Assembly (NCBI GenBank): GCA_030427805.1
Contig: JAUICP010000001.1
Location: 496,001 to 560,000, forward strand
Length of the DNA stretch: 64,000 nt
Origin: Bdellovibrionia bacterium
Lineage (GTDB): Bacteria; Bdellovibrionota; Bdellovibrionia; Bdellovibrionales; JAGQZY01
Direction of reading: 5' to 3'
In this document: one piece after another, positions 62,201-64,000 of the stretch
How the letters are laid out: every line of letters starts with the position of its first letter
Position numbering within the stretch: position 1 is the stretch's first letter
Notes under the pieces: model-generated
What the model saw: the letters and a program-made list of their open reading frames with translations, nothing else
Told to the model about the DNA's origin: nothing
Databases searched by the model: none
Translations under genes and position numbers: made by a program

Positions 62201-62869
62201 TCACAGGGTCGTAATGTGGCTTCTAAATTGTTCTGGATTTTCAACCGTACTTCCATGAAAAACGAGGACTCGATTGAATTTTAACTTTAAGACTTTCTGA
62301 ATTGATTCGCGAAATGCCTTTTTATTTTTGATATTGAGTTTAACAAGTCGGCTTGTTCCCAACTCTTCTTTGATTCCCATTAAAAAGAGTGATGCCTTAA
62401 GGGCCTTACTCGTGAAAACCTGAAAGTTGAAGACGAGATCCGTAACGATCAGAGCTTTTTCTTTTTTGACTAAGTAGAGTGACTCTTGGATATTCGGACA
62501 GCCATTGAGGGAGATGACATCAAAATCACTTTTATACTTTTCTGCAAAATCCTCTGGAGTATCAATATGGCTTTGAAATCGCGTGTTTTTTCGTAAGATT
62601 TCAAGAGGACCATAATACTTTGCCTTGAGGTCGCTATATTCGTGGAGATACATGTGGTGAAACATGTTGGGCGCAACAATGACAATTTCTTTTTTGGTCT
62701 TTAAGAGTCGATCTAGGGCTGGAAATCGTGGGCCGGGAGAAAAAATAAATGCAGTTTCACCCGAGGTGACTATGAAAGTACGGGTTGGTAGCATCACTTT
62801 TGGCAATACGGAGACTTCGAAATCGTAATACTGAATCATGTCTGATTCTTTAATGAGCTGTAGTTCCAT
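62201..62869 (-). CDS. MBL-fold-like (DUF4336-like) protein
   Basis: 222 residues. Strands and loops such as VAPNMFHHMYLHEYSDL, GCPNIQESLYLVKKEKALIVTDLV and VLVFHGSTVENPEQF follow the DUF4336/MBL-like plan. The HHxxxHE segment could bind metal, but a full motif is not clear. The start at 62869 is the ATG just at domain onset. The longer frame begins with TTG at 62923 inside a terminator-like hairpin and is rejected. Confidence 0.68.
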   Translation of the reverse strand: MELQLIKESDMIQYYDFEVSVLPKVMLPTRTFIVTSGETAFIFSPGPRFPALDRLLKTKKEIVIVAPNMFHHMYLHEYSDLKAKYYGPLEILRKNTRFQSHIDTPEDFAEKYKSDFDVISLNGCPNIQESLYLVKKEKALIVTDLVFNFQVFTSKALKASLFLMGIKEELGTSRLVKLNIKNKKAFRESIQKVLKLKFNRVLVFHGSTVENPEQFRSHITTL

Positions 62870-62894
62870 GGCTCGGAATACAAACATAAAAAAT

Positions 62895-62921
62895 GCAAAA
62901 AGGGAATAACTCCCTTTTTGC
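62895..62921 (-). terminator. Terminator-like hairpin upstream of the MBL-like gene
   Basis: GCAAAAAGGGA-ATAAC-TCCCTTTTTGC, perfect 11-base arms, followed on the minus strand by ATTTTTTATG. It lies between the MBL-like gene and the next gene on the other strand, so it either ends a short minus-strand transcript from 62.9-63.15 kb, or attenuates the MBL-like gene. Confidence 0.6.
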
Positions 62922-63213
62922 AAATTAGGATTCTGAAGGTTTTTTATTGGTTAATAAATTTCGTCACTTTTGGTGGCTCTGGAACCAGTTCGGAAAAACA
63001 CGGGTTAGATGTTTATAATCTCCGAAAAAAATTCCAAAGTGACACCTCAACTGACAACATAGGTATATTTTTCAAGACCTGTGCCAATCAAAATCAGTGT
63101 TGAAATGACCCCATGGCTCTGTCGCGTCAAGTGTCTCCGGCCTTTCATTGAGTTTAGAGAATGGTGTCATCCTTTCCGTTGATCAATTGAGTAGAAGGGG
63201 TCAGCATTATTTT
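62922..63213. other. Interval without a recognised gene
   Basis: Divergent region of about 290 bases between the MBL-like gene and the histone-fold gene. It contains no family-like frame; a 61-codon open frame on the plus strand (62918-63103) lacks a ribosome site or homology signs. If the hairpin at 62895 is a terminator, a minus-strand small RNA could start here. Confidence 0.5.
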
Positions 63214-63711
63214 ATGGAACAAAATTATTGGAAAAAGTGTAGCGCCTGTAAGAAAGAGATCCCATTTTCCCACAAATACTATCAGTGTAGTGTTTCTACC
63301 TGTCAGGGTAAGCGAACAGGCCTCCAGTTTTGTTCAGTCTCCTGTTGGGAGCGACATCTGCCGGGTGCTAGGCATAAGAACGCTGGTGCCATCGAAAAGC
63401 ACTCCCCAAGTAAGGCTGAGTTTGAGAAGGAGCAGGGGGGCTCAGAAGCGAGTCAGCCCCAACGTCGAATCATTCGCAGTCAACCCGCTTCGGCCCAGGG
63501 GAATCCTGGTGATAAAGCCAAAGTTGATAACCACGAAGTCCTGATAGTGGCTTCAAAGCTCAAGCAATACATTAAAGATGTGTCGGGTATGAATACTTCT
63601 CAATCTGTACTCAATGTACTCTCGGATATGGTTCGTCGAGCGAGCCAAGATGCAATCGATCGCGCTAGAGAGGATGGTCGAAAAACCGTCCTCGACCGGG
63701 ATTTTAAGTAG
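63214..63711 (+). CDS. Zinc-finger plus histone-fold protein
   Basis: 165 residues. The N-terminus holds a zinc-binding region with C9, C12, C25, C30, C40, C44 and nearby H48 and H54, ending FCSVSCWERH, similar to MYND/HIT treble-clef fingers. After a flexible linker (about 55-107) the C-terminal 58 residues look like a histone fold: KLKQYIKDVSGMNTSQ, then VLSDMVRRASQDAIDRAR and GRKTVLDRDF, the last being the RKTV..D loop of archaeal histones and of the Bdellovibrio histone Bd0055. The third helix is nearly absent. It probably binds DNA. The open frame reaches TTG at 63148; ATG 63214 starts before the finger. Confidence 0.78.
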   Translation: MEQNYWKKCSACKKEIPFSHKYYQCSVSTCQGKRTGLQFCSVSCWERHLPGARHKNAGAIEKHSPSKAEFEKEQGGSEASQPQRRIIRSQPASAQGNPGDKAKVDNHEVLIVASKLKQYIKDVSGMNTSQSVLNVLSDMVRRASQDAIDRAREDGRKTVLDRDFK

Positions 63712-63715
63712 TCGA

Positions 63716-64000
63716 TTACTGGGCTAAATAATTACTGATTTTTTCGAGTTCCTCAGTACTCAGAATTTCTCCGTAGGAGTTTGGCATAACTCCGCTCGGG
63801 CAGTCTCCAGATGGACAATGTTGGGAAATGCTTGCTTCAGGGTTGAGTATGGCTTCTTTGATTTCATTGGAAGTCATTCTTAGCCCAAGATTATTGAAGC
63901 TCGGCCCGACGACACCACCATCATTACCGAGCCTGTGGCAGCCCGTACAGCCGTATTCCACGAGAAGTTGATAGGATTCGTCAGACTGCTCTAAGCCCTC
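63716..64000 (-). CDS. C-type cytochrome, cut by the window edge
   Basis: The frame is open to the right edge, so the N-terminus is missing; 94 residues are visible. The haem site is EYGCTGCHRLG, followed by GPSFNNLG, and a later Met (GVMPNSYGEIL) can be the sixth ligand, with the end EELEKISNYLAQ typical of class I cytochromes c. Its end lies five bases from the histone-fold gene's stop, tail to tail. Confidence 0.88.
   Translation of the reverse strand, partial: EGLEQSDESYQLLVEYGCTGCHRLGNDGGVVGPSFNNLGLRMTSNEIKEAILNPEASISQHCPSGDCPSGVMPNSYGEILSTEELEKISNYLAQ

Follow-up and report, generated by a model that had tools for sequence, protein, structure and literature searches.

A ZZ Histone Gene in a Bdellovibrionia Bacterium and the Separable Finger and Histone Modules of Its Relatives

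The Locus and Its Reading Frame

Near the end of the window, by which is meant the whole stretch of 64,000 nucleotides that was analyzed, lies a gene for a 165-residue protein that joins an N-terminal Cys/His finger to a C-terminal histone domain. The gene encodes a ZZ histone, a member of a class that is already published, having been described in predatory bacteria and their relatives by Schwab et al. in 2024 (PMC11390915); the class is thus not new. The host genome has a size of 4.5 Mb and a completeness of 98.9%. The features of the locus are as follows.

63187..63202, plus strand: putative ribosome-binding site AATTGAGTAGAAGGGG, at least about 11 bases 5′ of the ATG
63214..63711, plus strand: coding sequence of the ZZ histone, 165 amino acids, ATG start and TAG stop, from the open reading frame and its translation
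63214..63411, plus strand: predicted ZZ-type zinc-binding domain, residues 1–66, with C9, C12, C25, C30, C40, C44, H48, and H54, from the structural model and Foldseek
63412..63531, plus strand: linker, residues 67–106, predicted to be flexible, with an RRII motif
63532..63708, plus strand: α3-truncated histone fold (almost certain), residues 107–165, containing the RD clamp (R156/D163) and the K157-T158 loop, from phmmer, Foldseek, and VIA

The closest relative, L033, comes from a Bdellovibrionia metagenome bin and encodes a protein 97% identical to that of the window. The two genes are separated by 24 synonymous differences and 6 differences in non-synonymous codons (dN 0.013, dS 0.280, dN/dS about 0.05), and on this comparison of coding sequences purifying selection acts on the ZZ histone gene. 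All five resulting amino acid changes fall within residues 76–97 of the linker; therefore, both ends of the protein appear to be strongly selected, while the middle is free to vary. Conservation begins just past the ATG at 63214, indicating that this start is correct and that the in-frame TTG at 63148 is unneeded. The assignment of the ribosome-binding site, whose counterpart in L033 is GAGGAGAAGGGG, is uncertain because its spacing to the ATG is long.

The ZZ histone gene converges, across a gap of four bases, with a minus-strand cytochrome c gene whose stop lies at 63716 (Pfam 8e-9). The other adjoining gene, on the minus strand at 62201–62923, encodes a 240-residue protein for which Pfam gave no match at 0.01; it adjoins the histone gene in L033 as well. 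Across about 60 loci, no conserved neighborhood of the finger/histone gene was found; the exception is a small number of related genomes, in which the ZZ histone gene (L044, L049, L052, and related loci) lies in a flagellar cluster, with a flgD-like gene and other flagellar genes as neighbors.

The Domains of the Protein and Its Class

The sequence-only reading had taken the C-terminal part of the protein for a histone fold with a shortened third helix and the ending RKTVLDRDF. The motif is present, although the chain runs on for one more Lys and ends in RKTVLDRDFK. The last 58 residues match HBb of Bdellovibrio, the phmmer search of residues 108–164 against the PDB giving 9.1e-9 for entry 8cmp and 1e-8 for 8fvx, with weaker matches to HLp (1.2e-3), HTkC, and an archaeal histone. 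The NCBIfam archaeal histone model matched at 2.2e-4, which is under its curated cut-off, and Pfam and PADLOC scans of the 165-residue protein found no family above cut-off. The AlphaFold monomer model built with 79 relatives has a mean pLDDT of 86, the value mostly exceeding 90 in the finger and in the histone domain; an earlier model built without relatives (pLDDT 58) was set aside. The modeled histone helices comprise residues 113–124 and 130–153 and a third helix of three residues, 161–163, after which the chain ends within two residues; such a very short third helix is the mark of α3-truncated histones. In Foldseek, the best matches of the domain were the HBb structures 9ezz, 8fvx, and 8cmp (TM 0.86–0.91), followed by HTkC and HLp, and VIA-align against 9ezz gave a Z of 8.7 and an rmsd of 1.6 over 60 residues. 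A histone fold was thus predicted, and profile and structure searches linked the C terminus to histones only, so that the fold and the shortened helix, much as first read, can be taken as almost certain.

The phmmer alignment places residue n of HBb at residue n + 105 of the ZZ histone. Ten HBb residues have been reported, from simulations, as the main DNA contacts (PMC11317129), and nine of them are identical here: Asn22, Arg57, Ser9, Thr53, Ser24, Lys10, Lys12, Lys52, and Lys16 of HBb correspond to N127, R162, S114, T158, S129, K115, K117, K157, and K121, respectively, the sole difference being Thr8, which is replaced by A113. Among 79 sequences, R156, T158, and D163 are invariant, and S114, K117, N127, S129, K157, and R162 are more than 90% conserved. 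Because the contact residues are identical or conserved, DNA binding by the ZZ histone in the manner of HBb is likely, and we would expect it with good confidence.

The histone domain shares with HBb (Bd0055) the fold, the RD clamp, and the KT loop, but the two are only about 43% identical, and HBb has no zinc domain. In a tree of the histone domains, which is based on about 60 columns with weak support and is suited to broad grouping only, the HBb-type histones form a group of their own (support 94). They are conserved in the DNA contacts and the RD clamp, as is the window's domain, but consist of a single domain of about 60–70 residues without additions, whereas the present protein has 165 residues including the zinc domain. 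The face-to-face histones HLp and HTkC, which assemble as tetramers, have the same truncated-α3 fold (TM 0.88–0.92) but are 34–39% identical and have no finger. A full-length α3 of about 10 residues, characteristic of nucleosomal archaeal histones, is absent.

All eight Cys and His ligands of the N-terminal domain stand where the sequence-only reading had placed them, and all are invariant in the alignment of 79 relatives. Their spacing, C-x2-C-x12-C-x4-C-x9-C-x3-C-x3-H-x5-H, recurs in 116 of the 118 finger sequences parsed, the x9 segment being x5 in the other two; given this invariance and constancy, the pattern is not due to chance. Trp6 and Pro65 are also invariant, and Glu61 is nearly so. 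Foldseek matched the modeled finger to the ZZ domain of p62/SQSTM1 (5yph_A; probability 0.98, TM 0.63, E 0.043), in line with the earlier suggestion of a ZZ-type histone variant, a term that coincides with the published name of the class (PMC11390915). Eukaryotic ZZ domains (p62 and KCMF1; in the literature also HERC2, p300, and ZZZ3) have the same two-zinc layout, C4 plus C2H2, but profile searches revealed no significant sequence similarity between them and the bacterial finger. The profile of the finger had no match among solved structures, and hhalign gave none with a human ZZ sequence, a comparison that carries little weight. Assignment of the finger to the HIT, MYND, FLZ, or FCS types, prompted by an FCSxxC(W/F)xxH motif, was rejected as the Pfam matches were weak and scattered (zf-FLZ at 0.0035 in one member, zf-FCS, and zf-HIT); the ZZ model was absent from these matches. 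Because the structure search favors ZZ and the Pfam alternatives are weak, the ZZ assignment of the modeled domain is retained with moderate confidence. The protein would be expected to contain zinc, the ligands pairing into two sites (C9/C12/C40/C44 and C25/C30/H48/H54) as in the published model (PMC11390915). It should be noted that the legend to Fig. 4 of that paper gives a ligand as C43 (C53 in D0LYE7), which conflicts with the C-x3-C spacing (C40, C44) of 79 of 79 relatives and is perhaps a misprint.

The linker of about 40 residues is flexible in the model, where the pLDDT falls to 53–75, and an R-x-hydrophobic-hydrophobic motif occurs in the linkers of 73 of 99 fused relatives. The protein combines an α3-truncated histone related to the bacterial dimers, HBb being the best match, with an eight-ligand C4 plus C2H2 domain, and it does not differ in architecture from the published ZZ histones, with which it also shares the ligand order and the bacterial groups of origin. 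The observation and its reading are correct and the class is known; the remaining interest lies in the evidence for modules more than in the gene itself.

Distribution of the Modules and a Proposed Function

A survey of 84,980 species genomes yielded 445 candidate stretches that were confirmed as relatives, of which 80 were kept; these are mostly from Bdellovibrionota, with Myxococcota, other Deltaproteobacteria, and a few other groups also represented. No relatives of the finger were found on viral contigs. Within the phylum, the finger occurs in 100 of 192 genomes, practically always in single copy, and a histone of the wider family in 171. This patchy presence of the finger gene, together with the low transcript and protein levels of the ZZ histone of B. 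bacteriovorus (PMC11390915), argues against a bulk chromatin protein like HBb, a role that the HBb DNA surface of the histone domain would allow but that is very improbable.

Within the phylum, at least 19 genomes have frames that encode the finger without a histone domain (L113–L128 and L130–L132). Fourteen of the 19 proteins have 108–130 residues and a basic C-terminal tail such as PKVILRR, and each of the 14 genomes also encodes a stand-alone histone, a co-occurrence that is not significant by itself because histones are common in the phylum. The other five are short, about 70–75 residues. Short finger genes were found in six genomes of genus g32 (family f9), two translated in full (G002, G041) and four seen as short frames only (G011, G019, G064, G072), and a search of these six for a histone gave no match at E 1e-4. 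A finger in genomes without a detectable histone is therefore probably useful, and able to work, without histones. Conversely, families f13, f17, and f14 contain histone genes that lack the finger and resemble the C-terminal half. The finger and histone halves are separable modules, which to our knowledge is new here. The stand-alone histones of f14 (L145, L157, L158, L172) have an N-terminal motif, PRRILV, similar to the RRII of the ZZ histone linker.

ZZ domains are a class known to bind peptides, and the eukaryotic ones read histone H3. A finger that reads the tail of another histone in this way would agree with the similarity in fold (Foldseek; PMC11390915) and with the genome of the window itself, which contains three genes with a histone fold: those for the ZZ histone, the HBb-type L002 (C6:160475), and L003 (C9:35582), which resembles face-to-face histones. 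However, L002, with 64 residues, has only about two ahead of its fold and so offers no tail, and the six finger-bearing genomes of g32 have no detectable histone. Schwab et al. also considered tail reading unlikely, since the bacterial ZZ domains have not kept the peptide pocket of their eukaryotic counterparts and a second histone is present in only half of the proteomes that carry a ZZ histone (PMC11390915). It is, accordingly, an improbable function.

The reading that we prefer, with some reservation, is that the ZZ histone acts locally as a DNA-bending homodimer with an arm for a protein partner. The histone domains would pair, and the homodimer would, like HBb, grip the DNA backbone regardless of sequence and bend it; the N-terminal zinc domain, on its flexible linker, would serve as an arm for recruitment or targeting. 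By binding the partner, this arm would place or use the histone at specific sites rather than have it package the chromosome as a whole. A local role is favored over a bulk one by the scarcity of the protein in B. bacteriovorus (PMC11390915) and by the presence of L002 and L003 in the same genome, and the finger-only genes, found even where no histone is detectable, indicate that the finger has a job of its own. That it binds protein is only marginally favored, since the ZZ peptide pocket is not conserved in bacterial members (PMC11390915), the absence of a conserved neighborhood means that no partner is indicated, and the finger is basic (11 Lys and Arg versus 4 Asp and Glu; net charge about +7) and could itself touch nucleic acid. 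The main competing explanation follows from this last property: the zinc domain may be a second nucleic acid contact, making the protein a two-handed architectural factor that needs no protein partner. The linker, often with its basic-hydrophobic motif, and the ..VILRR tails in which finger-only relatives terminate are in keeping with such a contact, but the top structural match is a ZZ domain, of a peptide-binding class, and sequence matches to nucleic acid-binding fingers were all below significance, so that this explanation appears rather unlikely.

Hocher et al. describe a second, longer histone of B. bacteriovorus, Bd3044, that is scarcer than Bd0055 and cannot replace it (PMC10627809); Bd3044 is presumably the ZZ histone of that species. 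According to a review, deleting either bd0055 or bd3044 is lethal (PMC11318664); in the excerpted passages of the primary paper, failed deletions are given for bd0055 only (PMC10627809). Bacterial histones are a young field, in which the detailed studies found in the literature concern only HBb and the face-to-face HLp. A literature search found no zinc, DNA-binding, or partner data on any ZZ histone and no later functional study of the class, and the separable modules offer a direct way into the function of these proteins.

A Predicted Nested Start in Genus g42

In eight fused genes of genus g42 in family f17 (L173–L178, L184, and L185, from G038, G077, G119, G160, G180, G098, G084, and G163), an in-frame ATG with a purine-rich ribosome-binding site ahead of it, for example aaAGGAGctagatATG, lies directly before the histone domain. 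In the close relatives L179–L181 and L183, a stand-alone histone begins at the same ATG and site. The gene in the window has no such internal start before its histone domain. In the histone tree, the g42 fused genes group among stand-alone histones, apart from the type found in the window (support 84, which is weak), a position compatible with a second fusion and also with repeated loss. Loci L060, L067, L070, L077, L102, and L105, labeled single or finger-only in the trees, look like fused genes missed by the pattern and were left uncounted.

These arrangements suggest, tentatively and at somewhat less than even confidence, that finger and histone are modules of one system that have been fused and separated repeatedly, and that the g42 gene is nested, giving rise to both a full ZZ histone and a finger-less histone, with mixed dimers possible. 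If this is true, a g42 cell could build dimers carrying one finger or none, and the nested gene would represent a natural mix of finger-bearing and finger-less histones. Two further loci, L162 and L163 (in G184 and G158), encode doublet histones of 132 and 149 residues, with two folds per chain, each with an RKTVM..DF end and with the DNA-binding motif kept.
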